From Candidatus Nitrospira kreftii (GTDB lineage: Bacteria; Nitrospirota; Nitrospiria; Nitrospirales; Nitrospiraceae), in contig CP047423.1 in assembly GCA_014058405.1 (NCBI GenBank), positions 2,898,501 through 2,962,500 of the forward strand: a stretch of DNA of 64,000 bases, read 5' to 3'. Below the pieces are notes generated by a model that saw only the letters and a program-made list of their open reading frames with translations, was not told where the DNA came from and searched no databases. A program made the translations under genes and the position numbers. Of the stretch, positions 6,722 to 57,830 are shown in pieces (the first letter of the stretch is position 1; each line of letters begins with the position of its first letter).

Positions 6722-7429
6722 CTATAGATGCGCCATGTCATCTCGCTCGTCCGTCTCCTTCGCTTTCCGCCACCGCCGTTCCAACGCATCGCGCGCAATG
6801 TTTCGTCCGCCGAGCCCCACGGCAATCGCTAGAGCCAGGATGACACCACCGAATACGATGGAGAATGCCGCCACCACGATTTCCTTGGCGATGCCGAGCT
6901 GCGTCAAGACCATGGCTGCTGTGAAGAGAAAAATGCCCCAGCGCACCATGCCGGCGATGAATCGTGCTTCTTGAATCTGTGCGTTGACCGTCGCAATCAA
7001 CGTTGCTTCCGCCAAGAAGTTCCCGAGCAGAACGCCGACGAGGATCAAGAGCCCGGCCGCGATAACACTTGGCAAGTAGCCCACCAGTTGACCCATCAGG
7101 TCTGCCGTCGTTGGCAGCCCCAACGCATCCACACCCATGAATATGAAGATGACGAAGACGGTCCAGAAAGCCAGGCGACCCACGATCTGAGAGAACGGTT
7201 GCTTGAATCCTGCCTTTGCCAGCGATGCCTGCAATCCCCATCGCTCGCTCAGCACATCGGCGCGTGCCGCTCGCAGCAGATGTTGAAGGACCGCTTTCAT
7301 GGTCAGTCCGACGAGAATCCCAACTGCGATGAAGCTTACCAGAGCCATCAGCTTAGGAAAAAAGAGCGCCATCCGCATCATCATGTCGCGAAACGCTTCC
7401 ACTATCGCGTCGCCCCATACATTACTCAT
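6722..7429 (-). CDS. MS-channel-like membrane protein (CmpX/TM-helix family), copy 1
   Basis: 235 residues with about five hydrophobic helices (roughly 21-45, 83-104, 115-145, 155-180 and 185-210) and a basic, soluble C-terminal tail. The repeated glycine-rich helices (LPSVIAAGLLILVGVLLGN, FGGVILALAIAVGLGGRNIA) are typical of the 'conserved TM helix' family related to mechanosensitive channels; a canonical MscS beta domain is absent. It is the last gene of the glycogen/trehalose series. Its start lies eight bases inside the preceding glycosyltransferase, so the two are translationally coupled. A paralogue at 45962-46672 sits beside a paralogous glycosyltransferase. A role in solute release or osmotic sensing is inference from family and context. 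Confidence 0.8.
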   Translation of the reverse strand: MSNVWGDAIVEAFRDMMMRMALFFPKLMALVSFIAVGILVGLTMKAVLQHLLRAARADVLSERWGLQASLAKAGFKQPFSQIVGRLAFWTVFVIFIFMGVDALGLPTTADLMGQLVGYLPSVIAAGLLILVGVLLGNFLAEATLIATVNAQIQEARFIAGMVRWGIFLFTAAMVLTQLGIAKEIVVAAFSIVFGGVILALAIAVGLGGRNIARDALERRWRKAKETDERDDMAHL

Positions 7430-8708
7430 CGCTCCACCTCCATCGCTGAATCAGGTACGGCTTCATGGTTTCATATTCGACGGCCAACCGCTCCAGTTCC
7501 TCCTCCACCCGCTTCACGGGTTGCTCACGCGTCGTCAAGACCAGCGACGCGGTATAGCCAAGATAAAGGGGCGTCAAAGCCTTCAGGAGATGTTCGCGAT
7601 GCAACAGGCGGTCATGATAAGCCAACGCGAAGTCGTAGACGACTTGGACCCATAGGCTGGGAGGAAAACGAAAGCGGTCTGTGTCTTCAACACCGAGCTC
7701 CAAAACCTGTTGAAATGTCTCACCGGGTAGAATGATCTGCCACACCGGAAGCAAATCACGAAGCCCTTGGCGAAATCCGTTGATCATTCGCTCCACGTTG
7801 ATTGATCCGCTCGCTGCTCCCAATCCCATCAGAGGGCCGATCGTAGGGACGGTCGCCGAGTTCTTTACGGTCTCCCACTTCTCCTGATATCGCTCCATCA
7901 GATAAAAGAGACAGCCGACTGACTGCGCCACCAGGGCTGATAATTCGCCGATCGGCTTAGCCTGCTGCAGGCGCGGCCCCAGCCCAGCACGGCATATCTG
8001 AAGCGATTCGGCAACCGCGAGCGTCATCACCCATCCGTCGATTCCGAGGTGCGCGATCTCTTGGTCCCACGGCTGCGGCAATACCGCCGAACGAATCATG
8101 TTGGCCGAAAACGCATATGCCCCCCCCAAGTGATAGGGAATACGCTTCCCATAGAGGGCGGCTATCAACGGCGCGAGCAGGGTATTCGTCAATGTCCCGT
8201 CGTACCGGTTGCGCAGGAACCAAGGCAGGACGCAATCGACCCCTTTGCTGATAATCGGATCGAGAAGGAGCTCCGGCCAATGCTCGTCCACTGATTTCAC
8301 GTTACCATCGACGACCAAGCAGGCAGACGCGTTGAGCTTGTCAGTCAGGGTAGCGAGAATGCGGACGGCGGACTCCCGTCCTGGTACGCCGGACTCCGAT
8401 ACCAGCTTGTAAGATGAGGCCAGAATAGGATGATGGATTGTCCAGAGACGCGAACTCTCGCCGATACTCTGTTCGATGGCTTGGGCTGTCCCATCCTGCG
8501 AGCCCGCATCGCAATTGACGACGAGGATGCGCTGCTGTGGAAAGGAGCGGGCACAGCCTTCGATCATTGCACGTACCAGCGTGGGGGCCGTGACCTTATC
8601 GTTGAACGTGAGCAGCCCGATGACGATATCGGCCTGTTCAGCTTCCTCCAGCCGTGTGCGAACCGACTCCGGAAGAAACGAGTCTTCCACCGCTGCATCC
8701 CCCTCCAC
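7422..8708 (-). CDS. GT2/GpgS-like glycosyltransferase, copy 1 (degenerate DXD)
   Basis: 428 residues, starting at a GTG. The N-terminal half is a GT-A fold: IVIGLLTFND opens the nucleotide-binding strand, then ILVVNCDAGSQDGT. Where the family has its metal-binding DXD, this copy reads VVDGNVKS, so the second Asp is replaced by Asn. Its paralogue at 46712-48025 reads VVDSDLRS at the same place. Shared blocks include RYDGTLTN, the IPYHLGGAYAFS segment and LGIDGWVM. The family transfers sugar from a nucleotide sugar, here probably to a glycerate or sugar acceptor in compatible-solute synthesis (inference). It follows treT by 35 bases and overlaps the channel-like gene by eight. Confidence 0.75.
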   Translation of the reverse strand: MEGDAAVEDSFLPESVRTRLEEAEQADIVIGLLTFNDKVTAPTLVRAMIEGCARSFPQQRILVVNCDAGSQDGTAQAIEQSIGESSRLWTIHHPILASSYKLVSESGVPGRESAVRILATLTDKLNASACLVVDGNVKSVDEHWPELLLDPIISKGVDCVLPWFLRNRYDGTLTNTLLAPLIAALYGKRIPYHLGGAYAFSANMIRSAVLPQPWDQEIAHLGIDGWVMTLAVAESLQICRAGLGPRLQQAKPIGELSALVAQSVGCLFYLMERYQEKWETVKNSATVPTIGPLMGLGAASGSINVERMINGFRQGLRDLLPVWQIILPGETFQQVLELGVEDTDRFRFPPSLWVQVVYDFALAYHDRLLHREHLLKALTPLYLGYTASLVLTTREQPVKRVEEELERLAVEYETMKPYLIQRWRWSDE

Positions 8709-8743: not shown

Positions 8744-9943
8744 TCACTCGGTGCTGAGGATTTTCAGGATTGTGAAATAGTCACTCAAATGTCTCGTGAT
8801 CAGGAAGTTTCGCCTGACATGCTCCTTCGCCATCGCACCCATCCGACTCATCACGCCGGGGTTGCTCAGCAGATAGCGGATACGGAAGGCCGCCCCCTCG
8901 ACAGAATGAACGACGAATCCGGTCGCCTCATTCACGATTTGGGTGGACACTCCGCCGGCGGTTCCCCCGATGACCGGCTTTCCCTTCCACATCGCCTCAG
9001 ACACAGCCACTCCGAATCCTTCCTTGAGGGCCTTTTGGATGACAATCGTAGCGCCTCGCTGCAATGCGTTGATTTCGCGGTCGGCCTCCGGCGGCAACTG
9101 GAGGACGTGAATGTCCGGATCATTCTCGGCCGCCTGCTGGACCTCAGCCAGCACGGCCTCACCTTCCGGATCATGCAGCACACCGCTGCCGGCTAAGACA
9201 AGCTGACAATGGTGGTGTTTCTTTGCCATCCGGTAAGCGCGAATCATGCCGATCTGGTCCTTGAATCGGTCAAAGCGCGCGACTTGCAGGAGAATCGGTT
9301 TCCCTCGGGCGATTCCAAATTGATCAAGCACCTGCGTGATCTCGGCGCGTGAGAGCTCACGGTTCTTTTCCGTCAGTGGATCGATTGAGGGATAGAGCAG
9401 AAACTTCGGGATAGGCAGGCGCTGCGCAAATCCAGGCAGCGAAAAAACAGCCGCGTCATATTTCAACACATGTCGCCGAAACAAACTCCACACCGGTCGA
9501 TGAGGCAGTCCGGCATCCAGATGGCAACGCCAGACCCACTTGCCACCTTTACGATGATCGACGAGCGGAGCTGGTTGCGGGTCGTGAACAAAGACGAGGT
9601 CTGCATCAAGATTCAATACCTTGGCATTTCTGGCGTTGACGTCCAGATACGTCTGGTACATCTCATTGGTAATGGTTTCCTCACGCCCTTGCAAACCGTC
9701 AGTGATCCGGCGCGTGACATCGGTGAATTCCTGCGTGCCGGCAATGACTTCCCAACGCGCCTCGGTTCCCATTGCCTTCATGATGGGAACGATCCGCCTC
9801 AAGATTTCAGCCATCCCGCCGCCGTAGCGTACGGCGCTGATATGGAGAAACCTCTTGCCCTGTACCAGATGACTCAATCGATATAAGAAATCGATGGCCC
9901 CCTTCGGAGCCACCGCGCGATATTGCTCCAACTCTCTGATCAT
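8744..9943 (-). CDS. treT: Trehalose synthase TreT-type (GT4), copy 1
   Basis: 399 residues with a GT-B fold. Visible family marks: a glycine-rich acceptor loop (SAVRYGGGMAEIL, about 36-48), FVHDPQPAPL, WVWRCHLD, the second-domain opening PILLQVARFDRFKDQ, and the nucleotide-sugar site EGFGVAVSEAMWKGKPVIG in the C-terminal half. TreT joins NDP-glucose (ADP- or UDP-glucose) to free glucose, giving trehalose in one step. A second TreT lies at 56563-57816; the two share all these blocks. Located after treS and before a glycosyltransferase gene in the glycogen/trehalose series. Glucose as acceptor is assumed from the family; related GT4 enzymes make other disaccharides. Confidence 0.82.
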   Translation of the reverse strand: MIRELEQYRAVAPKGAIDFLYRLSHLVQGKRFLHISAVRYGGGMAEILRRIVPIMKAMGTEARWEVIAGTQEFTDVTRRITDGLQGREETITNEMYQTYLDVNARNAKVLNLDADLVFVHDPQPAPLVDHRKGGKWVWRCHLDAGLPHRPVWSLFRRHVLKYDAAVFSLPGFAQRLPIPKFLLYPSIDPLTEKNRELSRAEITQVLDQFGIARGKPILLQVARFDRFKDQIGMIRAYRMAKKHHHCQLVLAGSGVLHDPEGEAVLAEVQQAAENDPDIHVLQLPPEADREINALQRGATIVIQKALKEGFGVAVSEAMWKGKPVIGGTAGGVSTQIVNEATGFVVHSVEGAAFRIRYLLSNPGVMSRMGAMAKEHVRRNFLITRHLSDYFTILKILSTE

Positions 9944-10114: not shown

Positions 10115-11794
10115 TTACAGCGCCGTCAGTTCGATCCCATAGGGCTCCGACCCTGCCTGTTCCGGCTTGAGGTTCAGCCAGTAATACCCGTAGGGCGCCA
10201 GTGTCACTACATAGGGACGATCTGTCACCTGAGGAAATTGCGACTCGCCCAACAGTTCGACCGGCAGAGCGCCGACGAATTCTTTGAGGTCCAACTCCAC
10301 CGATTGTGCCGACCCGGCCAGGTTATGGACAAGCAGCAGCACAACGTTTTCGTGCCGTCTCACATACGCCAGAACCTTGTCATTCGTCGACTGTAGAAAC
10401 GTCATCGTTCCCCGCCCGAATGCGGGATACCGCCGGCGTGCGGCGATCATCCGCTTCATCCAATGCAACAGCGAATGGGGAATTTCTTTCTGGAACTCCA
10501 CGTTGATCGATTGGTAGCCATAGGTCGGATCCGCCACCAGCGGTAAATACAGGCGCGACGGATCGCACGTCGAGAATCCCGCATTCCGATCCATAGTCCA
10601 CTGCATGGGCGTTCTCACCCCATCCCGGTCCTTCAGTTGGATATTGTCTCCCATGCCGATTTCATCCCCGTAATAAATAATCGGGGTGCCGGGCATCGTG
10701 AAGACCAGACTGTTGAGCAGCTCGATCTTGCGCCGGTCGTTATCTAAGAGCGGTGCGAGACGCCGCGCAATGCCGATATTGCGCCTCATCTTCGGATCGC
10801 GAGCATATGTGTAATACATGTAGTCCCGCTCTTCACCTGAACACATCTCAAGCGTGAGCTCGTCGTGATTGCGGAGAAACAGGCACCACTGGCAATTCGG
10901 TGGGATCTCGGGCGTATGCGTAAACATGTCGATGATCGGATCGCGCGTCTCACTCCGCACACCCATATAGAGTCGGGGCATGAGCGGAAAGTGAAACGCC
11001 ATATGAAATTCATCCCCGTTTCCAAAATAAGGTCGCACATCGGATGGCCATTGATTTGCCTCGGCCAGCAATATGCGGTCTTGATAGGACTCATCAATGC
11101 GACGACGAATATCCTTCAAATAATCGTGCGTCTCCGGCAAGTTCTCACAAATCGTGCCTTCACGCTCAAATAGATACGGCACCGCATCGCACCGAAATCC
11201 ATCCAGTCCCTGATCAAGCCAAAACGCCATCGTATCGAGCATGGCTTGCCGGACTTCCGAGTTCGCATAATTCAAATCCGGCTGATGGCTGAAGAATCGA
11301 TGCCAGTAGAACGCTTTCGCCTCCGAATCCCATGTCCAATTTGATTTTTCAGTATCGATAAAGATGATTCGGGCTTTACCGTACTTGCGATCATTGTCGC
11401 TCCAGACATAGAAGTGGCGCTTGAGCGATTGAGGCGATTGCCGTGCTTCCTGAAACCACGGATGCTGATCGGAGGTGTGATTCAACACCAAATCGACGAT
11501 CACACGCATCCCTCGTCGGTGGGCTTCATCCAGAAAACGGCGTACGTCTTCTGTCGTACCGTATTGTTCAGCCACACTGCGGAAATCCGCCACATCGTAT
11601 CCGTCGTCCCGCAACGGTGAGGGATAAAAGGGGAGCAACCAGAGGCAGTCCACACCGAGCCATTGGAGGTAGTCCAGTTTTCCGATCAAGCCCTGGAAAT
11701 CACCGATGCCGTCCCCATTCCCGTCGGCAAAAGCCTTTACGTGGATCTCATAAAACACCGCGTCCTTGTACCAGAGAGGATCTGCGCTCAGCAT
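10115..11794 (-). CDS. treS: Trehalose synthase (maltose alpha-D-glucosyltransferase)
   Basis: 559 residues, a GH13 (beta/alpha)8 enzyme of the length usual for TreS without fused maltokinase. The N terminus is typical ([20 protein letters not shown]). Catalytic residues are readable: nucleophile D203 in [10 protein letters not shown], acid/base E245 in LLAEANQWP, and D311 in [19 protein letters not shown] is the usual TreS motif before the beta C-domain. It interconverts maltose and trehalose in the cytoplasm. The maltokinase and glgE genes lie upstream in the same series, so flux from trehalose to maltose-1-phosphate and glycogen is possible. Confidence 0.92.
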
Positions 11795-11814: not shown

Positions 11815-12516
11815 CTATGTCCCGGCTGATTTCGCCAACTGCTCATCGCACATGGTCAGGACGTTCGATCGCAGTCGCTCCAGACTGCCGAGATAAGGAT
11901 TCAAGGCTTTCATCCGATCGGCCAGATCCGGCAACTTCAGACTGCTCCGGAACCAGGCAGAAAAATCGTTCTCTTCCCGCTGTAACCGCAAGTGCGCTTC
12001 GAATACATGGTAATAAATGGCGCTGGAATCGACGTCCGAAATAGCATCGCGGAACTCATGAAGTGTCTGCGCTTCTACACCGGTGGGCACCTCCAGAATG
12101 CGCGATCGATTGAAGTAGAACGGCGCCCCAAACCCCGTGCGCGGGACCGCCGTCATGCCGGAGAGGTGATCATCGATGAGGGAAATCAATTCTTCCCGAA
12201 GCGCTTCCAAACTCTGAAAATCGAACGGATCCACCACCGACAGTCGCTCGGCAAGAACATGATCCTGGACTTGCTGAGCCGCCCATTGGGCAAAGTCGTT
12301 CGGGTAGGTACGCTCAATGAACCGCGTCCGCAGAAAATAGCTGTGCGTATGGTAATACACCGAGTCGAGCGGAACTTCTTCCAGCATCTCCACCAACTGG
12401 CGTTCGTCCGCAGCCTGTTTCCCGAGAATCTCTTGAATTTCACTGCATCCGATGAATCGGAATACTGTATCGGCATGCGTCGTTGTCACAATTCCCCCTT
12501 CTTCATTCGGCAGCAT
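11815..12516 (-). CDS. DUF5752-like protein
   Basis: 233 residues, soluble, no signal peptide. The sequence has two similar halves: [14 protein letters not shown]...[14 protein letters not shown]...[11 protein letters not shown] and, later, [42 protein letters not shown]. Both pair a Y-Y-H motif with N-D-F-x-x-W, so it looks like an internal duplication. I associate this pattern with DUF5752, found near trehalose and glycogen genes, but no reaction is known to me. It begins two bases after the GH15 stop and ends 20 bases before treS, so it belongs to the operon. A GTG nine codons downstream, behind a G-rich run, is an alternative start. Confidence 0.7.
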
Positions 12517-12518
12517 AA

Positions 12519-14342
12519 CTAGACCGACACAGTCCGCGGCGAACTCAACGCTCGATCGAGATTGTACGCAGCACTGATCAGGCCGATGTGGGCGAACGCC
12601 TGGGGGAAATTCCCCAGATGCTCTCCCGTTACCGACAATTCTTCCGCATAGAGCCCGAGGTGATTGGCATAGCTCAAAATCTTTTCAAAGATTAGTCGCG
12701 CTTCTTCCAGACGACCCGCTCTCGTTAGAGCCTCGACTAACCAGAAGGAACAGAGAGTAAACGTCCCCTCTTGGCCGGACAAACCGTCGGGGGCGGCTTC
12801 TTCTGGGATGTACCGAAACACCAATGCGTCTGATACCAGGCTAGCCATGATCCGTTCAATCGTCGATTGCATGCGTGGATCTGTCGGCGAGAGGAAAAAT
12901 ACGAGTGGCAGAACCAACGCACTGGCGTCCAGCGCGTGGCCGCCGTATTCCTGCACAAAAGCCTGCCACTCTTGATCCCAACCATGGTGCATCACATCTC
13001 GATAGATGCAGTCTCGCACCTCTATCCACTTGGCGCGATCAGCAGGAAATCCCCGCTTGTCTGCGAGGCGAATGCCTCGGTCGAGAGCAACCCAGCACAT
13101 GACTTTCGAATAGACAAACTGCCTTTGCCCGCCCCGTACCTCCCATATCCCTTCGTCAGGTTGATCCCAATTGGCAGAGACATAGTCCAGCAGGCGAGAC
13201 AACCCGACCCAACTGTCATAGCTGATAGGTGACCCGTGCTTATTATAGAGATACGCGGCATCCATCAGCGCTCCGTACATATCGAGTTGGCGTTGTGATG
13301 CAGCGCCGTTGCCGATACGGACCGGTGACGATCGCTGATATCCTTCCCAATGAGTAAGGACGTCTTCTTGTGTGATTCGACGCCCATCAATGCCGTAGAG
13401 AACTTGCAGCGAGCCATCATGGTTTAACTCATGACAGCGGGCTTCAAGCCACTGCATGAATCGACCTGCCTCATTTGAGAAACCGAGGCGCAACAGTGCA
13501 TACAGAGTGAAGGCTGCATCTCGAATCCAGGTGTAGCGATAGTCCCAATTCCTTGCACCACCGATTGCTTCCGGCAAGCTGGTCGTCGGCGCGGCCACGA
13601 TCGCACCAGTCGGCGCGTAGGTCAGGAGCTTGAGCGTCAACGCTGAGCGTTGGACCATTTCTCGCCATCTCCCGGTGTACCGACATTGGCTCAACCATTT
13701 TCGCCAATAGGCCATAGTCTCCCGCAGCGCAGTTTCATCTGTTTGCGGCACATCAAGAACGCTCTCGGTCGTCTCCGACTCTAATTGTACGAGAAAGAAG
13801 GTGACTTGCTGCCCTTCTTCCAGGGTGAACTCTGCCTCCACAGTTTCCTGATTGGTGATGAGCGGCACAGGACTTACCAAACCAATCGTCAGTGAAGCCG
13901 AACGAAAGATCGCCCCTGCTGAGCGCAATGTCACCGTATGTTCATCCCGTCCAAAATTGAATGCGGGTTGGCACTCCAACCGAAACAGAATCTTCCCCCT
14001 GACGACCTTGACCATACGAATAATTTGATGTCGTGTCGGATGAACTCCCGGTTCATCGCCTTCGATGGGCATGAAATCCGTCAACTCACCCACACCGTCA
14101 TGATGCAGAAAGCGAGTCAACAGGACGTTGGTCTCCGGTAGATACAGTTGCTGTCGCTTCCCGTCATCAGGCGGTGCAATACTGAACCGTCCGCCCCGTC
14201 GCTCATCCAATAACGCGCCAAACAAGCTGGGCGAATCGAAGTGAGGGAAGCAACACCAATCGATCGATCCGTCCTTTCCCACCAATGCGACGGTGTGGAG
14301 GTCCCCAATCACCCCATAATCTCCGATCGGCTTATAGGCCAT
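12519..14342 (-). CDS. GH15 glycoside hydrolase (glucoamylase or trehalase type)
   Basis: 607 residues. The N-terminal beta domain opens with [20 protein letters not shown] and [20 protein letters not shown], the classic GH15 start. The (alpha/alpha)6 domain shows [20 protein letters not shown], then [16 protein letters not shown] (general acid Glu) and [15 protein letters not shown] (general base Glu) near the C terminus. GH15 members release glucose from alpha-glucans or, in an actinobacterial branch with this same N terminus, hydrolyse trehalose. The neighbours (mak upstream, treS downstream) fit either role. No signal peptide, so cytoplasmic. Confidence 0.85.
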
Positions 14343-14567: not shown

Positions 14568-16139
14568 CTAGACACTCTGAACCAAGCTCCTGATTCCTTG
14601 GAGCGGGATCGACAACCAATCCGGTCGATTTCTCATTTCATACCGCATTTCGTAGACGGCTTTATCAAGTTCGTACACGCGAATGACCCGGAGCGCCTCG
14701 TCCCAGGTCGCCGGAACAAAGACCGCCTCCCCCGGTCGAGCAACAGAACAGTAGCCGTCGAGAAAGGAGGCACGAACGGCGCCTTCCCATTCCGTCATCA
14801 ACTCAACATCCGTTGAAGACACCTCCGGGCGCTGTCTCAAGACGGCGTGAGTTGCATAATTGAATGAGCGCAGCATTCCTCCGACATCTTTTAATGGGCA
14901 GACCTTAGCGCGCCGCTCCTCAAGCGGCCTGGCAGGTTCTCCTTCGAAATCGATCACCATAAAACTATCGGTCGTTTTGAGCACTTGCCCGAGATGATAA
15001 TCTCCGTGGTGGCGGATCTTTACCGCCCTTGCTTGAGCCAAGAGCCGGAGGTCATCGAACCGGTCGCGGCAAGCCGTTTCCAGCCCAGTCACTTCGTCAC
15101 CCAGCAAACCGACCGCCGACTGCTGCGCCGGCTGAAGCGCGCGCAAATCGTGACAAACTTCTGTGAGCTGCTTCGTCATTCCGACTTTCCACTGATCGAC
15201 ATCGCGCAGTGTGATCGGTTCCGGACGAAAGGCCTCCGGTTCCTGCCGAGAAGCCAGTGCCACATGCACGCCAGCCGTGATCTCACCGAGCCGTCGAAAC
15301 TGGGCCAAGAGCGGATCGGAAATTGCCGCCACGGTGATCGCGAGGTTGTCTCCGCGGTCCATGACCACCTGACCGCCTTCATCCAAGAGTTTCCCGAGAT
15401 GAGCCAACGTATAGGACCATCCATCACCGACGTTCGGTACGAATCGCTGGAGCACCGCCACAGTCACCGGCTGCGCCTCATCCGTCATATCGCTGTCGTA
15501 CGTAATGATGCCGAGCAGAGCCGGCACATCACGACACGTTGTTTGCGTCGTCAGGAATTCCAGGACCTCGCTATCGGGATGGATGCCTGCGTCCAGCTTG
15601 CGGATCAATTTTATGATCGCCCGCCGGTCGAGGATCACCGACGTATTGCTCTGTTCAGCAGACAAGACCGTGGCTTCCCGCACAGGTGTTGCCAATTCCT
15701 CCCTCCCTTGCGGCACGGCACAGCCACTGAGACATCCGAGCTGCCCTGCCAGTTCCCGGCCTTGTGCCACCATCTCGTACAAACTAATCCAGGTTGCTGA
15801 ATCTTCGGCTGCATCGCAGACCCACTCATTGGCTGAAGCGCCTGTCAGCTCGACGATCGCCCTGCCATCGTCCTGATCCATCCGTGGCCGGATCGTCAAC
15901 GGCATCATATAGTGTTCCTTGGCGCCGCCTCGATACTCGACCGACGCCATCGCCAACATGCGGCGGTCGGCCCCATGAGACAGGTCGAACGCATCGGCAA
16001 CGCGTACATCCGTCAACGGCTTTCCCTTCCCAGCGAACCATCGCTGCCGCTGGAGATATTCGATCAGGAGGCGACGCCCCTGTCCGCTCAGCGCGACCAG
16101 AGCCTGTTGGATCCCTACTTGATGTTCGGCTTGCCCCAT
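14568..16139 (-). CDS. mak: Maltokinase (GlgE pathway)
   Basis: 523 residues from ATG 16139, which has GAGGG nine bases upstream and lies 11 bases after the glgE stop; a longer frame to 16190 would overlap glgE and is less likely. The N-terminal cap contains QRQRWFAGKGKPLTDVRVAD, the usual maltokinase opening. The kinase core has IRHHGDYHLGQVL (catalytic Asp, about residue 383) and MVIDFEGEPARPLEERR (metal-binding Asp, about 396), followed by SPLKDVGG-like CPLKDVGGMLRSFNYA. It phosphorylates maltose to maltose-1-phosphate, the substrate of GlgE encoded just upstream. TreS, the source of maltose, is encoded downstream. Confidence 0.9.
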   Translation of the reverse strand: MGQAEHQVGIQQALVALSGQGRRLLIEYLQRQRWFAGKGKPLTDVRVADAFDLSHGADRRMLAMASVEYRGGAKEHYMMPLTIRPRMDQDDGRAIVELTGASANEWVCDAAEDSATWISLYEMVAQGRELAGQLGCLSGCAVPQGREELATPVREATVLSAEQSNTSVILDRRAIIKLIRKLDAGIHPDSEVLEFLTTQTTCRDVPALLGIITYDSDMTDEAQPVTVAVLQRFVPNVGDGWSYTLAHLGKLLDEGGQVVMDRGDNLAITVAAISDPLLAQFRRLGEITAGVHVALASRQEPEAFRPEPITLRDVDQWKVGMTKQLTEVCHDLRALQPAQQSAVGLLGDEVTGLETACRDRFDDLRLLAQARAVKIRHHGDYHLGQVLKTTDSFMVIDFEGEPARPLEERRAKVCPLKDVGGMLRSFNYATHAVLRQRPEVSSTDVELMTEWEGAVRASFLDGYCSVARPGEAVFVPATWDEALRVIRVYELDKAVYEMRYEMRNRPDWLSIPLQGIRSLVQSV

Positions 16140-16150
16140 CGATTTCGCCC

Positions 16151-18151
16151 TCACGAAAAGAAATCGACTTCCTGCTCTCGATGCGTCCAACGCCGCACCA
16201 CGAAAATGGCGGCCGGCTCGTCCTGCGGATCCAATCGCACAATGTAGCGATCGCCGACCATAAGATCGCGCCGATCAGTGATCACATTGTGCAATTGATA
16301 GGTGTCTTCCGCTTTGATACCAAGCGCTTCAATCGGAATCCGAAGATGGGCTTCCTGATAGTGGAATGGACTGAGATTCACCGCCACGAGCACTGAGTTC
16401 CGCTTATCGGCCGTACTTTTTCCAAAGAACACAACCTGGTCGTTACTAGACTCATAGAATTCGAGATTCTCCAGTTCATGCAGTGCGGGATTGTCTCGCC
16501 TGATTCGATTGATCAACGTGACATAGTCGACGATGTGGCCTGGGCGATCCCAATCCCACACCTTAATCTCATATTTCTCCGAATCGAGATATTCCTCTCT
16601 CCCCGGCAGGGCTCGGTTTTCGCACAGCTCATACCCGCTGTAGATGCCGTACGAAGGTGATAACGTCGCCGCCAGTACCAACCGGAATTTGAAAGCCGGC
16701 CGGCCGCCTTGCTGAAGAATCTCCGGCAAAATGTCAGGCGTATTCGTGAAGAAGTTCGGCCGGAAATACTCCTTCATCTCGGTCTGGGACAACTCCGTCA
16801 TATACTCAGTCAATTCCTGCTTGAAGTTCCGCCAGGTGAAGTAGGTGTAGGATTGCGTAAACCCGGCTTTGGCCAGCGCCTTCATCATCTTCGGCTTGGT
16901 GAAGGCTTCGGAGAGAAACAGCACATCGGGATACTGCGCCTGCACCTCCCTGATCAGCCAGCCCCAAAAACTCACCGGCTTGGTATGTGGATTATCGACG
17001 CGGAAGATTCTCACGCCATGATTCGCCCAAAAGAGAATGACACGTTTCATCTCATTCCACAGTCCACGCCAATCCTGACAATAAAAATCAACGTTGAAGA
17101 TGTCCTGATATTTCTTGGGCGGATTCTCCGCGTACTTGATCGTGCCGTCCGGGCGGTGCGCAAACCACTCAGGATGTTCTTTCACATAGGGATGGTCCGG
17201 CGAGCAATTGATGGCAAAATCCAACGCGAGCTCCATCCCCTGAGCACGGACGGCCTTCTCGAACCGATCGAAATCTTCGATCGTACCTAGGCTCGGCTCC
17301 ACCGCGTCGTGGCCACCCCGCTCATTCCCAATCGCATAGGGACTGCCGGGATCGGTCGGAGCCGAGGTGAGGGAATTGTTTTTTCCTTTCCGGTTTGTCC
17401 GCCCGATCGGATGGATCGGAGTCAGATACAGCACATCGAACCCCATGGCCTTGATTGCCGGCAATCGCTTCTCACACTCTTGAAAGGTCGATCCTCTCTC
17501 AGGATTGGTCCCCTGAGAACGGGGAAATATTTCATACCAGGCCCCGAATCGCGCGCGGACTCGATCGACCACCAGCTCCAGCTCCCGATCGTACAGGGTC
17601 CAGGCAGTACGTTCCTGGTGCCGTTCCACAAGTTCGGAGAGTTCCTCATTGAGTGCCACCGTGAGTTGCGCCTCCTGCGTATCCGACGAACGCCATTGCG
17701 TGAGAAACGCTGCCAATCGGACTTTGTCCGGTTCCTCCGCGCGTTTCACCGCCTGCTCGACCAACGCTCGCCCTTCCAGAAGCTCGCTTTCAATACGCTC
17801 TCCCGCCTGGGATTTCTTGATCGCCTCTCGACGCCAGGATTCAAACGTGTTCGTGAAGGCCCCGATGGTATAGAGATAGCGCGTGTTTTCCTGAAGATCG
17901 AAATGGCCGACCCATCTGTCGTTATCGGTGTGCGACATCGCCGCCTCGTGCCATGACGTTTCTTTGATCGTCCGATATCGAAGCACAGCGGTCAGAACGT
18001 CGTGCCCTTCCTTGAAAATATCAGCAGACACACTCAGACGATCTCCGACTTCACGTTTGATCGAGTACCGTCCGCCGTTGATCTCGGGTTGTACCGCTTC
18101 GATGATGATCGGCGACCACGCTTCAGGCTTCGCTTTCGTCCTCAACCCCAC
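16151..18151 (-). CDS. glgE: Alpha-1,4-glucan:maltose-1-phosphate maltosyltransferase
   Basis: 666 residues from a GTG at 18151, chosen because AAAGGAGG stands nine bases before it; an upstream ATG (18217) would add 22 residues with no ribosome-binding site. The start then agrees with family openings (IIIEAVQPEINGGRYSIKRE). Domains: beta N domain, helical S domain, GH13_3 catalytic barrel, C domain. FRVDNPHTKPVSFWGW contains the nucleophile (about D386), LFLSEAFTKPKMM the acid/base (about E415), and PTDPGSPYAIG and YFRPNFFTNTPDILPE are GlgE-specific. It extends alpha-glucan with maltose from maltose-1-phosphate. Together with TreS, Mak and GlgB the whole GlgE route is in this window. Confidence 0.94.
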   Translation of the reverse strand: MGLRTKAKPEAWSPIIIEAVQPEINGGRYSIKREVGDRLSVSADIFKEGHDVLTAVLRYRTIKETSWHEAAMSHTDNDRWVGHFDLQENTRYLYTIGAFTNTFESWRREAIKKSQAGERIESELLEGRALVEQAVKRAEEPDKVRLAAFLTQWRSSDTQEAQLTVALNEELSELVERHQERTAWTLYDRELELVVDRVRARFGAWYEIFPRSQGTNPERGSTFQECEKRLPAIKAMGFDVLYLTPIHPIGRTNRKGKNNSLTSAPTDPGSPYAIGNERGGHDAVEPSLGTIEDFDRFEKAVRAQGMELALDFAINCSPDHPYVKEHPEWFAHRPDGTIKYAENPPKKYQDIFNVDFYCQDWRGLWNEMKRVILFWANHGVRIFRVDNPHTKPVSFWGWLIREVQAQYPDVLFLSEAFTKPKMMKALAKAGFTQSYTYFTWRNFKQELTEYMTELSQTEMKEYFRPNFFTNTPDILPEILQQGGRPAFKFRLVLAATLSPSYGIYSGYELCENRALPGREEYLDSEKYEIKVWDWDRPGHIVDYVTLINRIRRDNPALHELENLEFYESSNDQVVFFGKSTADKRNSVLVAVNLSPFHYQEAHLRIPIEALGIKAEDTYQLHNVITDRRDLMVGDRYIVRLDPQDEPAAIFVVRRWTHREQEVDFFS

Positions 18152-18287
18152 TTGTCGATACCTCCTTTCAAGTGGCTCAAGATGTTGGAGCGCGATTCGG
18201 CTCCTCGCTTTGAGCAACTGGATGTGTGATGTACCCCCAATACTCTCTCAGTGACGCCGGCCCCCTCCGACGCAACTGTCGAATCAT

Positions 18288-21200
18288 TCATGTCGCCCGT
18301 TCCATCAATGCGACCGGACACTCCATCAGAATCTCGGCGGCAGCAATGGCCTGGCGACCCTCGTCCGGGAGAGTCCCCGACCGTCTTCCGGTTAGAACGT
18401 TCCGGTAGAGTGATCCTTCCTTCCACGAAGGCATGGTCACCTTCGTGTCCCCCCAGACCCGCTCACCGACTGGAAGTTCGGTCGGATTCTCGATCACACC
18501 GGTCAACAGGCGCGGAACGACAACGACCGCGGCCTGGTCCCCATGAATACGTGCAAATGCGAAAAGATGTTCTCGCTTCGCCCCGGACACTTGGAGCGGG
18601 ACGTACTCCCCCTGTCTGAACAACTCGGCATGTTCTCGTCGGTACCACAATCCTTGTGTCGTAAGCCACAGTTTGATCCGTCCATCCGCTCGATGGGTCA
18701 GGAGATCTTTCAAAAGCTCCTGCCGAGCCTGCACCGAATCGGCGGCTTGCTTCACGGCGGCGAGGACCGTACGTCTTATTCCAAAATTCACAGGCCGCCG
18801 ATTGTCCGGGTCAACCAGATTGAAGTCCCAGAGTTCCGTTCCCTGATAGAAATCCGGCACGCCGGGAGCCATCATCTTGATCAGCAGCTGCGCAAGTGAG
18901 TTGTACATTCCGTACTGCGCAATTCTGCGCTGGAACGGGAGAAAATCATCAAGAAAGTCATTTGCTTCTGATCGGTTGAGCACCCCTGCCACAAATCGGC
19001 GCATGGCCTCTTCATACTCATGATCAGAATTAACCCAACTCGTGTGAACCTTCGCCTCTCTTATCGCTTTGTTCATGTAGTCCTGGATCCTCACGCAAAA
19101 CCCTTCGTAGCCCTGCGTATCGAGTTGAATCAGCGGCCAGGCGCCGATCAAAGTTTGGTAAAGGAGGTATTCATCATCCGCACTCGGCGCCGGCCCCTGC
19201 TCCGCAGAAACCTTCCACTTTCGATTCGCTTTGCTCCACTGAGTCACTCGCTGGCTCCAGAGCTTCGGCACCTCTGACAGCACCGAAATCCTCGTCCGTA
19301 CATCTTCCCCGCGTTTCGTATCATGCGTCGCGGTGGCCGACAAAGTGGCCGGCCATCGGCCCTGTCGCTCCTTCAACTGTTGGTGCGCCATCGTCGGTGT
19401 CGTGCCGAACTGCTGTGGGTCGGCACCCACTTCATTCAACGAGACGAGTCGGTGGTACCGGTAGAATGCCGTGTCCTCAATGCCTTTTGCCGTTACCGGA
19501 CTCGTCGTCTGTTGAAACTTCATGACGAACCGAAGCCGCTCGACATCGTGCGCCTCGCGCGAATCCGCTGCTTGCAAGAGAAGATCTCGAACAAATTCAA
19601 AGACCAATCCACTGAGCGCAGGATTACGACGTTTGGCCTTGGTCACGGCCTGCCAAATAAAGGCCCGATCTCGATCTAGTATCCCTTCGGGCGATGCCGT
19701 GATATACGTCCGGTAGACCGGGAAGCAGGCGATGATCTCTCGAATCGCATGCGTCAGACTATTGAGCGTATAGTCGCGGGATCGTCGATCCCGTTCCGAC
19801 AGGCGGTTCAGCTGGTGGCCCAGGACATTCAATTCGCTCGCCATCGAGGCGCTCATGATCAGCCGCTTGGATTGGTAGGCTAACTCCTCAAACGTGTCTT
19901 CCTTGCCGACAAAACGAGCATAGGCCGCCTCGATGGACCGCTCGTTCGCACGACTCACGAAAAGCCCGTTGATAAGCGCCAAGAAGTCGTACCCCGTGGT
20001 GCCATGAACCGGCCATGACTCGGGAATCCTTTCGTTGGCACCAAGAATCTTTTCGACGATCAGATACAGCGGTCTCGTTTCCGAGTCGGCAACCTCCGGC
20101 CATTCCTTTCTCGCCCATCCCTGGAGTTTCTGGAGATAGTCAGGCGGGTCATAGAGACCATCGACATGGTCGATCCGAAGGCCGGTCACCGCTCCCTCTC
20201 TCAGCAGTCGAAACACCAACTGATGCGATGCCTCGAAGACCTCGGGATTCTCCATCCGAAGAGCGGCGAGCTCGTTGATATCAAAAAACCTCCGGTAGTT
20301 GATCTCTTCAGCCGCGACCCGCCAGTCAGCCAGACGATAGGCTTGATCGTTCAACAGCGCGTCGAGCAGGTCGAAGCTGCGTGGGTCTCCCTTGGTCCCG
20401 TTAATCTGCCGAATGTTCTCGTCCAGGAAACTGCGGATGGCCGCATGACCCTCCATCAGGGCCGACAGACGGCGACGGATGATTTCCTTCTCCCGATAGC
20501 GCACGACGACCGCCTCCGGATCGAGGGCGTTGCGTGGGGGTAAATGCGTGAGGGCCGTGATGATACTCTGTAGTTCCATCACATGGGGACTGCCGGCTCC
20601 CTCTGCGTCAACGAATTCTTTGAGACGATGTGCCAGGATGAGGACGGACGCTTTGGGTGCCACTGGAAGACGATGTTCGTAGTAGCGGATGATGTATCGC
20701 CCGTCCTGATATTCTATCTGTAATTCTTGGTTTTCCAGCACGACGCCGTATTGATTGCCGAGGATCGGCAGGAGCACTTTGTTCCGCAGTTCGGCCTTGA
20801 GCGGGTCCCAATCGATATCAAAAAAGGACGCGTACGGTGAGATGGGTCCATTCTCGAGCACATCCTGCCACCATGCGTTGATTTGCTGGGTGATGCCCAT
20901 ATGATTCGGCACGACATCCAGCAGATGCCCCATACCACGTCGATGCAACTCATCGATCATCGCCCGATAGTCGTCTTCGCTTCCAAGCTCCGGATTCAGG
21001 GTCGTCGGATCGACCACGTCATATCCATGGAGACTACCGGGTACTGCCCTGAAATAGGGGGAGCAATAGAGATCCATGATGCCCAGGTCATCCAAATAGG
21101 GGATCAGTTGTGTCGCGTCTTGGAAGGTGAATGTGCGGTTAAGCTGAATGCGATACGTGGCGATTGGGATTCGTGGCATGGCGATGGGTGTCACGAGCAT
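18288..21200 (-). CDS. treY: Malto-oligosyltrehalose synthase
   Basis: 970 residues, a GH13 enzyme of the usual long TreY length. It opens with IPIATYRIQLNRTFTFQDA and ISPYASFFDIDW follows, both typical. Catalytic residues: GLRIDHVDGLYDP (nucleophile, about D343), LIVEKILGANERIPESW (acid/base, about E382), and TATHDTKRGEDVRTRI (about D628). The C terminus has FYQGTELWDFNLVDPDNRRP. It converts the reducing-end linkage of maltodextrins to alpha,alpha-1,1, and TreZ (37578-39455) then releases trehalose. treZ is 16 kb away rather than adjacent. An in-frame ATG at 21179 fits the conserved start equally well. Confidence 0.94.
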   Translation of the reverse strand: MLVTPIAMPRIPIATYRIQLNRTFTFQDATQLIPYLDDLGIMDLYCSPYFRAVPGSLHGYDVVDPTTLNPELGSEDDYRAMIDELHRRGMGHLLDVVPNHMGITQQINAWWQDVLENGPISPYASFFDIDWDPLKAELRNKVLLPILGNQYGVVLENQELQIEYQDGRYIIRYYEHRLPVAPKASVLILAHRLKEFVDAEGAGSPHVMELQSIITALTHLPPRNALDPEAVVVRYREKEIIRRRLSALMEGHAAIRSFLDENIRQINGTKGDPRSFDLLDALLNDQAYRLADWRVAAEEINYRRFFDINELAALRMENPEVFEASHQLVFRLLREGAVTGLRIDHVDGLYDPPDYLQKLQGWARKEWPEVADSETRPLYLIVEKILGANERIPESWPVHGTTGYDFLALINGLFVSRANERSIEAAYARFVGKEDTFEELAYQSKRLIMSASMASELNVLGHQLNRLSERDRRSRDYTLNSLTHAIREIIACFPVYRTYITASPEGILDRDRAFIWQAVTKAKRRNPALSGLVFEFVRDLLLQAADSREAHDVERLRFVMKFQQTTSPVTAKGIEDTAFYRYHRLVSLNEVGADPQQFGTTPTMAHQQLKERQGRWPATLSATATHDTKRGEDVRTRISVLSEVPKLWSQRVTQWSKANRKWKVSAEQGPAPSADDEYLLYQTLIGAWPLIQLDTQGYEGFCVRIQDYMNKAIREAKVHTSWVNSDHEYEEAMRRFVAGVLNRSEANDFLDDFLPFQRRIAQYGMYNSLAQLLIKMMAPGVPDFYQGTELWDFNLVDPDNRRPVNFGIRRTVLAAVKQAADSVQARQELLKDLLTHRADGRIKLWLTTQGLWYRREHAELFRQGEYVPLQVSGAKREHLFAFARIHGDQAAVVVVPRLLTGVIENPTELPVGERVWGDTKVTMPSWKEGSLYRNVLTGRRSGTLPDEGRQAIAAAEILMECPVALMERAT

Positions 21201-21266: not shown

Positions 21267-21917
21267 CTAGTCGGCGATCACGTGCGCGCTGGTGGATTTG
21301 GTGTTCCCCCAGTTCTCCTCGCTCCCTGCGTTCGCCTGCAGGACGCGCAATAACCGGCTTTCGGTTTGTCGATCGTGGTGTCCTATCAGTTGATCCGACT
21401 CGCGAACTCGTTTCCGGTCCTCCATCAATACATAGGTCAACTCCGCCAGGATCTTGTTCTGCGCCCGTACCTGCGCCCGCAACATTCGGACCTCGTGGAT
21501 GAGATCCGGCTCGCGTGTCACGGATTCCAGAGCGGGCGACGCAGCGATCTGTAGCCGCTCTTCGGACACTCGGGGTCCATGTCGAACCCATCCGACTGCC
21601 TTCGTCGTTCCTCCTCGAAGAGCGTGAGCCGTCGTACTCGCCCCCTGAAAGATAAAAGACACTCCACTTCCAAGAACTTTGGCGGCATTCCAACCCCGTT
21701 CTGTCGCTCTCCAAGACGTTCGGTGCAGCCACCCTGCGAATACGGCTGCTTGTTGGGAACAGGCCTGCACAACACGTTGTGCCCGTCCGTAGGATAAATG
21801 CACGCGAGTCCGCAGTGGAACCAGCTCCGACCCTACCGGCGTGAGTGACGGATCGGGACGCGCCACGATGGTCAACATCTTGACAGGCCTCGTCAGGCTC
21901 ATTCTTTTCTTGCTCAT
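21267..21917 (-). CDS. Hypothetical protein in the glycogen operon
   Basis: 216 residues. Its ATG overlaps the glgC stop by four bases (ATGA), which supports this frame over the longer overlapping frame 21139-22011. The N-terminal half is basic with moderately hydrophobic stretches (NAAKVLGSGVSFIFQGAS), and about residues 130-190 look like a coiled coil (LIHEVRMLRAQVRAQNKILAEL...). No enzyme motif. It could be a scaffold or granule-associated protein, as suggested only by its place between glgC and treY. Confidence 0.6.
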   Translation of the reverse strand: MSKKRMSLTRPVKMLTIVARPDPSLTPVGSELVPLRTRVHLSYGRAQRVVQACSQQAAVFAGWLHRTSWRATERGWNAAKVLGSGVSFIFQGASTTAHALRGGTTKAVGWVRHGPRVSEERLQIAASPALESVTREPDLIHEVRMLRAQVRAQNKILAELTYVLMEDRKRVRESDQLIGHHDRQTESRLLRVLQANAGSEENWGNTKSTSAHVIAD

Positions 21918-23179
21918 ACGCCTCCTCCCTGTAGGTCTTCCTTCCTTGGTCGATCATGGGGAATTCCACGGAACTGTCTGGGTAACACGACCAGGTTAGA
22001 CCGTGAGACATGATATCGTTTTCGATCCTGTGCCGGATTCAATCCCATTTCGGAACCGGCGGGAATCACGTTGAACCGGTCTGCAACCACTCGTCGAAGA
22101 TGTGATTTTGCGCCGACGATTGAACCGTCGAGGATGATGCACTCTTCGATCTTGGTGCCGGATTCAATGCGCACATTCCGACCGATGACAGAACGCCTGA
22201 TGTCAGCATCCAGAACCTGGCTCCCCTGCCCAATCATGGAATCCTCGACATAGGCTTTTGCCAAACTTGCGGTCGGTCCATCGAATGTGTCGGTGAGGAT
22301 GGGCCAGTCTCCATTTCGCAGGTCAAAAATCGGGCATTCTCCAAGAATATCCAGGTGGGCCTGCCAGTAGGTCTCCAACGTCCCGACATCCCGCCAATAT
22401 CCTCGTTCCTCATAGGGTTTCAATCCCGGGACGACGTTCTGCATGAAATTGTAGGCCACCACGTGGTTCTTTTTCATGATGGAGGGGATCACGTCTCGAC
22501 CAAAGTCGTGAGAGCCTCCCTTTCTGGCATCTTCGGACAGCACCTTCAAAAGGACATCCGTCTCGAAAATATAGTTGCCCATCGATGAAAAAGCATGCTC
22601 CGAATCACGGGGCATCGGTTTCGGATGTTTGGGTTTTTCCGCGAAACCCACGATACGATCATTCGCATCGGTCTCGATGATTCCGAAACCACGCGCAGCA
22701 TGGAGCGGGACCGGCCGTGCCGCGACTGTCACATCGGCCCGGCGTTCCTGATGAAATCGTACCATCTGTTCGATATCCATCCGGTAAATATGATCGGCGC
22801 CGAACACAGCCACCAGGTCCGGCGAAAAGTCTTCGATGAGATTCAGATTGTGAAAGACCGCATCGGCGGTGCCTTCGTACCAACCGCCGCCAGCTTTCAT
22901 CTGCGGTGGGACTACCGTAATGAATTGCCGCTTAATCCGTCCACCAATCCGCCACGCTCGTCGCAAATGCTCGATCAGCGACTGCGAACGGTACTGCACC
23001 AGCACATACATCGCCATGATGTCGGAGTTCAAGAAGTTGCTCAGCACGAAGTCGACGATGCGATACTTCCCTCCGAACGGCACCGCCGGTTTGCTGCGGA
23101 CTTCCGTCAGCGGCATGAGCCGTTCGCCTTTGCCTCCGGCCATCACGATCGCCAGCACACGCTTGCCTGCGCTGCTCAA
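21914..23179 (-). CDS. glgC: Glucose-1-phosphate adenylyltransferase
   Basis: 421 residues, starting at TTG 23179 behind AAGGAG (spacing eight). The nucleotide-binding loop MAGGKGERLMPLTEVRSKPA, FGGKYRIVDFVLSNFLNS and GTADAVFHNL are all present, as is GADHIYRMD (catalytic Asp region) and RGFGIIETD. A left-handed beta-helix C domain follows (SQVLDADIRRSVIGRNVRIE). It makes ADP-glucose from ATP and glucose-1-phosphate, the first committed step of glycogen synthesis and also a donor for TreT. No classical GlgA is in the window, so ADP-glucose may be used here by TreT, or a glgA lies elsewhere. It is first in the eleven-gene minus-strand series. Confidence 0.95.
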   Translation of the reverse strand: MSSAGKRVLAIVMAGGKGERLMPLTEVRSKPAVPFGGKYRIVDFVLSNFLNSDIMAMYVLVQYRSQSLIEHLRRAWRIGGRIKRQFITVVPPQMKAGGGWYEGTADAVFHNLNLIEDFSPDLVAVFGADHIYRMDIEQMVRFHQERRADVTVAARPVPLHAARGFGIIETDANDRIVGFAEKPKHPKPMPRDSEHAFSSMGNYIFETDVLLKVLSEDARKGGSHDFGRDVIPSIMKKNHVVAYNFMQNVVPGLKPYEERGYWRDVGTLETYWQAHLDILGECPIFDLRNGDWPILTDTFDGPTASLAKAYVEDSMIGQGSQVLDADIRRSVIGRNVRIESGTKIEECIILDGSIVGAKSHLRRVVADRFNVIPAGSEMGLNPAQDRKRYHVSRSNLVVLPRQFRGIPHDRPRKEDLQGGGV

Positions 23180-56562: not shown

Positions 56563-57816
56563 TCAGCCGACCAGTTGCTTGACCAATCGCAGCTCATCGC
56601 GAACCAATCGAGGCAGAAGGAAGTTCTTGCGCACATGTTCGCGGCCAGCCCGTCCAAACGAGCCCCGTTCACCGGGATGGCGCAACAGATGGACGATGCG
56701 TTCGGCACAGGATTCGATGCTCTGGACTAGGTTTGCCTCGAACCCTTCCGGGTACTGCATCGGAATCCCTCCGGCCTGTCCCGCAACGACGGCCTTTTCT
56801 TTCCAAAAGGCCTCCGACACGACGAGTCCAAACCCCTCGCGCAACGATTTCTGTATGACGACATCGCAGCCTCTCTGAAACACATTGACTTCCATACTGC
56901 CGACGCCTGCCAGGTTTGTAAAAACGAACATGCTCGTATCACCTGACGCTTCCTCCTCCACACGGTCGAGCAGTTCCCACCCCTCCGGATCGTCTCCGGC
57001 CATCGCGCCGATCAAGGCCAGCTGCACGTCGGGAACCTCCTTCTTTACCAATCGGTACGCCTCGATAACGCCCAGCGGATCTTTCCAGGGATCGAATCGC
57101 GACACCTGCACAATCAGGGGCTTGCCCGGATCGACGCCGGAATCTGCGATGGCGCGACGGCACAGATCCTGGGAAAGATCCATGTTCTTCGTCGCCAACG
57201 GGTCGATGGCCGGCGCGATAAAGGCGGCGCGTTGGGCTCTGAGACCCGGCAAGAGGAACTCGGACATCGTGAAGACCACGGCATCATATTCCTCGAGATA
57301 CGGCAGCAGGAATCTGCTGACCTGTTTGTCCGGCGAGGAACTATCAATGTGGCACCGCCAGATCCACTTCGCATGGCGGGAGCCGGTGAAGTGCCGTAAC
57401 GCCGCCGGTTGGGGATCGTGCACGATGTAGACGTCGTAGTCGTTGCCCAACGCCTCCGCACTGCGTTCGTTCACCTCTAAATACAGCTTCTGTTCTTCCT
57501 CGCCCAAGGCATAATGTCCACCCTGCAACGCGTTGTGAAAAGCCTTTGTGACGGTAAAGAATTCCGGTTGGCCATGGATCAAGCGCCAGTCGGCTGAAAC
57601 GCCCAATGCCTGCAGCATCGGCAGGTACCGGGAAAGAAGTTCAGCGACGCCTCCGCCGAAGGCCGTCGAGTTGAGGTGGCAAATCCGCACATCTTTCAGC
57701 TCATGCGCAAGCTGCAGCAGCTCCTCACTCAATTCATCGCTGATCAGCATGCGGTAGCGCTGAACATTGGCCAGCATGGCCCCACACCGGCGACTCACTG
57801 AAATCTTCGGAAGCAT
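56563..57816 (-). CDS. treT: Trehalose synthase TreT-type (GT4), copy 2
   Basis: 417 residues from ATG 57816 with AAAGG upstream. Same family blocks as copy 1: HLNSTAFGGGVAELLSRYLP, VYIVHDPQPAALRHFTG, WIWRCHIDSS, LIVQVSRFDPWKDPLGVIEA and EGFGLVVSEAFWKEKAVVAG. It closely follows a complete galT (14 bases), so nucleotide-sugar supply and use are encoded together. It probably forms trehalose from NDP-glucose and glucose. The reason for two copies is unknown; donor preference or regulation may differ. Confidence 0.84.
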   Translation of the reverse strand: MLPKISVSRRCGAMLANVQRYRMLISDELSEELLQLAHELKDVRICHLNSTAFGGGVAELLSRYLPMLQALGVSADWRLIHGQPEFFTVTKAFHNALQGGHYALGEEEQKLYLEVNERSAEALGNDYDVYIVHDPQPAALRHFTGSRHAKWIWRCHIDSSSPDKQVSRFLLPYLEEYDAVVFTMSEFLLPGLRAQRAAFIAPAIDPLATKNMDLSQDLCRRAIADSGVDPGKPLIVQVSRFDPWKDPLGVIEAYRLVKKEVPDVQLALIGAMAGDDPEGWELLDRVEEEASGDTSMFVFTNLAGVGSMEVNVFQRGCDVVIQKSLREGFGLVVSEAFWKEKAVVAGQAGGIPMQYPEGFEANLVQSIESCAERIVHLLRHPGERGSFGRAGREHVRKNFLLPRLVRDELRLVKQLVG

Positions 57817-57830
57817 CGTTGCACCTTTCG

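Follow-up and report, generated by a model that had tools for sequence, protein, structure and literature searches.

The window, a 64,000-nucleotide stretch of the Candidatus Nitrospira kreftii genome, features a run of genes on the minus strand that begins with treY (malto-oligosyltrehalose synthase, 18288..21200; above the cut-off of TIGR02401) and glgE (maltosyltransferase, 16151..18217), followed by a maltokinase-like gene (14568..16190) with a Mak_N_cap domain and a TreS_Cterm match of 368.9 bits, just below the cut-off of 375.05. A GH15/trehalase-like gene (12519..14342; PF00723 and TREH_N) lies directly upstream of the gene under study, a 233-residue ORF with a Pfam match to DUF5752 (PF19027, OrfY-like; 12516-11815). 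The spacing given in an earlier, sequence-only reading of this DNA is exact: two nucleotides separate the GH15 stop at 12519 from the DUF5752 gene, and twenty lie between the latter and the treS start at 11794. treS (10115..11794; TIGR02456, above its cut-off) sits between DUF5752 and treT in this lineage. The GT4 gene treT (8744..9943) matches PF21269 (E 7.6e-46) and Glycos_transf_1, and is followed by a gene without a Pfam family (7422..8708) and a gene for an MscS-like transmembrane protein (6722..7429; PF05552 only, with no beta-domain match), these last two overlapping by 8 nt. A glgC-like nucleotidyltransferase gene (21914..23179, minus strand; NTP_transferase and a GLGC-type beta-helix), approximately 0.7 kb upstream of treY on the same strand, is only a putative member of the operon. 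The AlphaFold2 (AF2) model of the 7422-8708 product (pLDDT 83.7) has mannosylglycerate synthase as its closest structure (2BO7; E 7e-11, TM 0.63), so this protein is possibly another osmolyte glycosyltransferase.

The DUF5752-like protein recognized earlier matches PF19027 over profile positions 3-207 of 208 (E 7.2e-68; 228.5 bits, the gathering cut-off being 23), and its closest relatives are from Nitrospira. Judged by this match it is a full-length, high-scoring and ordinary member, and by itself adds nothing new to the family. Approximately the first 10 residues are unconserved and of low confidence in the structural model, so translation may begin a little farther in. The sequence-only reading also described two similar halves sharing two motifs. 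Both motifs indeed occur twice, Y-Y-H as Y54-Y55-H56 and Y168-Y169-H170, and N-D-F-x-x-W as N73-D-F-A-Q-W78 and N183-D-F-S-A-W188, and alignment shows the halves to be statistically related, with controls far below. Within the window protein the half-against-half Smith-Waterman score is 102, and the maximum among 2000 shuffles is 54. HHalign of half-profiles built from 108 distinct relatives gave a score of 138.6 (probability 99.7, E 3.8e-26, 100 columns); scores did not exceed 20.0 for 14 blocks of 105 columns taken from seven other families, or 18.3 for 30 column-shuffled copies of half 2. The block and column-shuffle controls rule out a chance likeness; the internal duplication is real and the halves are homologous.

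Half-domain 1 (12157..12471, minus strand; residues 16-120) comprises an F-x-F strand, H56, N73-D74-F75-x-x-W78, E90 and R107, and half-domain 2 (11830..12129, minus strand; residues 130-229) comprises an F-x-F strand, H170, R177, D184-F185-x-x-W188, E213 and R216. Across the 108 relatives, the pairs F19/F133, F21/F135, H56/H170, D74/D184, F75/F185, W78/W188 and R107/R216 are 94-100% conserved in both halves. The halves differ at the asparagine of the second motif, N73 being 96% conserved and position 183 variable (D in 39%), and E90 (half 1) and R177 (half 2) are examples of residues conserved on one side alone.

The genomic context of DUF5752 was surveyed by scanning 295 Nitrospirota genomes with PF19027 and with PF21269, the family of the TreT N-terminal domain. 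treT lies downstream on the same strand for 101 of 103 full-length DUF5752 genes, a set that leaves aside 21 partial matches (half-domain proteins and fragments). The gap is shorter than 400 nt in 73 of these 101 loci and approximately 1.8-2.3 kb, the spacing of one gene, in the other 28; the intervening gene is treS in the Nitrospirota loci that were read. Both families occur in 98 genomes, full-length DUF5752 alone in none, TreT alone in 13 and neither in 184. One of the two exceptions (G121:C13) has DUF5752 at the end of its 66,936-nt contig. The other (G263:C43, locus L108) has DUF5752 followed directly by otsA-otsB with no treT; the same genome also carries a second DUF5752 that does have a treT. 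Omnitrophota repeat the pattern: DUF5752 was detected in 59 of 145 genomes, and for 56 of the 60 matches a same-strand treT follows, in 55 cases within 400 nt, a count made without 12 weaker TreT rows that lie mostly in giant frames. The remaining four matches all touch contig ends, and in two of these genomes (G394 and G405, DUF5752 at a contig end) the genome search returned no TreT match. TreT-like matches inside very long frames, up to 37,731 codons, were seen in G393:C3, G428:C33 and other Omnitrophota contigs.

Taken over both phyla, 157 of 163 DUF5752 matches precede a same-strand treT. Of the other six, five lie at contig ends, and G263:C43 is the sole real exception. treT also follows DUF5752 in single loci from Auribacterota, Latescibacterota, Methylomirabilota, Clostridia and WOR-3. 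Among control genomes, Sulfolobus acidocaldarius matches both families and Thermotoga maritima TreT only. The ends of the two genes often overlap (e.g. -4 nt), and all 20 of the Omnitrophota neighborhoods fetched have treT directly after DUF5752, with otsA nearby in 18, otsB in 17, an mscS-type gene in nine, and otsA, otsB and mscS together in eight. In a set of 86 distinct loci flanked on each side by 4 kb or more, all 86 have a same-strand treT no farther than 5 kb away, and 74 have another trehalose-pathway gene (otsA, otsB, treS or treY). This set is non-random, as it includes loci found with the window protein and excludes G263:C43, whose flank is too short.

The link to sugar genes proposed from the window is therefore found elsewhere, in the 101 of 103 and 56 of 60 loci given above. 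The sequence-only reading had suggested a trehalose or glycogen role from the adjacency to GH15 and treS; of these the trehalose role is favored, and the glycogen role is rejected because the neighbors elsewhere are mostly otsA and otsB. The constant partner is also a different one from those first named, namely the TreT encoded at 8744-9943. GH15, whose cluster was found in 12 loci, was rejected as a constant partner, being a lineage-specific neighbor; TreS was rejected on the same ground, though where present its divergence fits that of DUF5752 as well as TreT's does.

The window contains two TreT genes. That at 8744-9943 is predicted from its sequence to encode TreT, comprising the N-terminal domain and a GT4 core with E-x7-E, and falls within a DUF5752-linked clade. 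The second, at 56563-57834 on the minus strand, has no DUF5752 and by sequence is closest to 2X6Q, in the DUF-less clade; genes for a cation exchanger and a GalT-like protein are among its neighbors. Of 153 TreTs placed in a tree, 130 were scored by script as DUF5752-linked, and 20 DUF-less Nitrospirota TreTs form a separate, fully supported side. The remaining three (L105, L109 and L234), which the script scored as DUF-less, are artefacts, two having DUF5752 upstream of an over-long ORF start and one lying at a contig edge, and were counted as linked in later trees and in the conservation comparison. The 20 were drawn from 27 DUF-less Nitrospirota TreTs, the others being the one in the window, three near-identical by score and three fragments. 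A second tree, which included solved TreTs and a random sample of 45 linked sequences, placed 6ZJ4 on the linked side (96/92) and 2X6Q on the DUF-less side; the window TreT matches both nearly end to end (E 2e-117 and 2e-100, respectively). A third tree used 18 of the 19 DUF-less Omnitrophota rows with a random sample of 40 linked TreTs, and 16 of the 18 fell outside the linked clade; the two inside are both at contig edges. E308 and E316, the E-x7-E of the GT4 core, are at least 98% conserved across 131 linked and 20 DUF-less TreTs. Both clades keep the conserved core, these two residues included, so DUF5752 is no stand-in for a dead enzyme. The trees divide TreT into a clade with a partner gene and the others, a division that bears on TreT enzymes studied alone: the structures of the Thermoproteus uzoniensis and Pyrococcus horikoshii TreTs are solved, the former with ligands and, in the accessible part of that report, apparently without a partner (PMC11046441), and the T. 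tenax TreT was analyzed as an enzyme, again apparently without a partner in the text available (PMC7688234). We infer that 6ZJ4 is the T. uzoniensis TreT, and 2X6Q is taken to be that of P. horikoshii.

Pairwise distances were then compared between DUF5752 and its neighbors, with length limits applied in the OtsA, OtsB, MscS and TreS comparisons. Among 49 loci with all three genes, the distance-matrix correlation is 0.92 for DUF-TreT, 0.64 for DUF-OtsA and 0.65 for TreT-OtsA. The 29 loci that also carry otsB gave 0.93 for DUF-TreT and 0.69 for DUF-OtsB, and the 28 loci with mscS gave 0.96 for DUF-TreT and 0.47 for DUF-MscS. For the 38 loci with treS the values are 0.91 (DUF-TreT) and 0.90 (DUF-TreS), and over 135 loci the correlation for DUF-TreT is only 0.85. 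Matched divergence therefore sets TreT apart from OtsA, OtsB and MscS, but not from TreS.

A small acidic protein whose gene precedes that of one TreT clade, often overlapping it, and which co-diverges with it, is most readily explained as a TreT subunit or as a regulator dedicated to TreT. On balance, we favor the interpretation that DUF5752 serves one TreT clade as a dedicated partner and is probably a subunit with a regulatory or scaffolding function. Encoded just before treT, or before treS-treT, it would bind the TreT of the linked clade and thereby might alter how active the enzyme is or where it resides; the association of DUF5752 with MscS-type channels, as a neighboring gene or fused behind the beta-domain, could tie trehalose synthesis to the osmotic state. 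A DUF of unknown function thus gains a concrete and testable partner. The linkage to treT also fits a pathway-specific regulator, which counts against the partner interpretation, as do the TreS correlation close to that of TreT, the lower DUF-TreT value over 135 loci, the 32 well-flanked loci where a channel gene did not turn up, the exception G263:C43, the two Omnitrophota genomes lacking a TreT match and the archaeal TreTs studied apparently without a partner. So too do two occurrences of the domain without an evident trehalose link. The first is a protein ending in a single DUF5752 half, a form found in 14 related proteins; the profile of this terminal half aligns with half 1 (E 2e-13) and with half 2 (E 1e-15), and the half is thus a free module as well. 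In one of these proteins, encoded in the window's own genome (L139 4288-6021, minus strand, 577 aa; C1:218802 region), Pfam recognizes a HAD phosphatase, a HerA-type ATPase and the C-terminal DUF5752 half, and the 13 relatives come from other loci. The second is a reported Cren7-URI-OrfY fusion (PMC5906684, as far as the accessible text of that work goes).

The conserved residues raise the question of catalysis. All 108 sequences have H56, H170 and D184, conservation of D74 reaches 94%, and the OrfY-like superfamily has been termed an uncharacterized enzymatic domain (PMC5906684, in the portion available), so that DUF5752 might catalyze a reaction on trehalose, a glucan or a sugar phosphate, the conserved histidine and aspartate of each half then lying in active sites. 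We regard this as unlikely, since the two halves, OrfY and the single-half module all retain largely the same residues, a pattern in keeping with a structural role, and since an enzyme leaves unexplained why the gene accompanies one TreT clade and not the other.

The fold was predicted with AF2; the AF2 alignments of this analysis, A1 and A2, contain 24 and 15 relatives, respectively, rather than all those known. In the model (pLDDT 87.8, pTM 0.80) each half features a strand region followed by helices. Foldseek returned a single significant match, 4CSO (E 2e-14, TM 0.78), the structure of OrfY from Thermoproteus tenax. VIA-align superposed the model on 4CSO with Z 22.0, an rmsd of 2.8 and 23% identity over 215 residues; the next entry has Z 4.4, and rows at that level and below were disregarded as weak. 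The predicted structure superposes across both halves, and on this model the window protein has the OrfY fold. The two proteins are also related by sequence (phmmer E 5e-17) and share an identical two-half H...N-D-F-x-x-W layout, whereas E90, D96, Y168 and R177, 91-99% conserved among the bacterial sequences, are missing from OrfY as aligned here.

4CSO was deposited as 'ORFY PROTEIN, TRANSCRIPTION FACTOR', and regulators are often located in the operon that they control, so DUF5752 could be a transcription factor for the trehalose operon. The structure was reportedly solved by a group studying T. tenax trehalose metabolism. We consider this role improbable. DUF5752 domains are acidic (median pI 5.1, range 4.7-8.9; median net charge -12), and 105 of the 108 distinct domains are negatively charged, which makes DNA binding less likely, though charge is no test of binding. 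Foldseek returned no significant DNA-binding fold, only 4CSO, and its weak rows exclude nothing. The position upstream of treT in both phyla is more rigid than a regulator would predict, and fusion of DUF5752 to a membrane channel in eight genomes is a further argument against this role. These results speak against the 'transcription factor' name carried by the sole solved structure that was found. Among the papers searched, none naming DUF5752, or OrfY together with trehalose or Thermoproteus tenax, was found.

In those eight genomes an MscS channel is continued by a full DUF5752. Pfam analysis of one such fusion detects the beta-domain and then DUF5752, leaving the MscS C-terminal domain unmatched, and genome G241 holds a ninth candidate by frame length. 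The TreTs adjoining the eight fusions form one clade, so a single fusion event suffices. Of the 86 well-flanked loci, 54 have a channel gene or a fusion no more than 5 kb away. These observations favor an alternative in which DUF5752 senses solutes and thereby gates MscS-type channels, its adjacency to treT reflecting merely a shared osmotic regulon. We regard this as improbable: 32 of the 86 loci showed no channel gene within 5 kb, while treT is present at all 86, and in the 28 loci with mscS divergence tracks TreT and not MscS.

A channel and a GT of trehalose synthesis have been brought together before, in the one paper found that, judged by title, addresses the subject. In T. tenax, a GT activates trehalose-phosphate synthase through complex formation, and its gene shares an operon with that of a channel; the authors suggest that the system responds jointly to osmotic conditions, describe the GT as closest to PimA, and claim the arrangement to be unique to Thermoproteus and Pyrobaculum (PMC3634074, in the part of that paper available). 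As described there, the msc-gt-tpsp complex resembles the present loci in bringing together channel-like, GT4 and trehalose-phosphate pathway genes, with an accessory protein that activates the synthase. The Omnitrophota clusters differ in possessing DUF5752 and TreT with separate otsA and otsB, and the window in having treS, treY and glgE instead. Two genes of the T. tenax type are present in the window, the channel-like MscS-TM gene (6722-7429) and the GT4 gene treT (8744-9943); trehalose-phosphate synthase and phosphatase genes are absent from the window cluster, and otsA and otsB lie elsewhere in the genome (C1:641381 and C1:642935). By analogy, the Omnitrophota clusters of mscS, otsA, otsB, DUF5752 and treT look like a bacterial counterpart of the T. 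tenax operon with an added component. More speculatively, DUF5752 may link the MscS channel to TreT, holding or releasing the enzyme, such that osmolyte synthesis and release are switched by one membrane-tension signal in a widespread device; this extension of the partner interpretation is tentative and, on present evidence, doubtful. The MscS fusions nonetheless make a channel-coupled osmolyte synthase, an idea from one archaeal operon, testable in bacteria.

The present analysis extends the Pfam entry for DUF5752 by the linkage to TreT, the channel fusions and the single-half module. No account of the DUF5752-TreT partnership, the MscS fusion or the modular half was found in the papers searched, which include few from subscription journals, so that orfY may have been remarked on before.

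Some of the clusters contain further genes. In one Omnitrophota cluster an extra, weakly TreT-like gene lies between otsA and otsB (L215 4282-5481, plus strand; E 5e-17). At another locus OtsA features approximately 270 extra N-terminal residues (L077 5155-7425, minus strand) with a weak match to sCache_3_2 (E 0.001, below the cut-off), and is perhaps a membrane-anchored, sensing trehalose-phosphate synthase. The same locus encodes a protein weakly resembling glucosyl-/mannosyl-3-phosphoglycerate synthases (L077 10739-11944) near a putative glycerate kinase, recognized by eye (11978-13363), a pair that hints at another osmolyte pathway beside the DUF5752-treT cluster.
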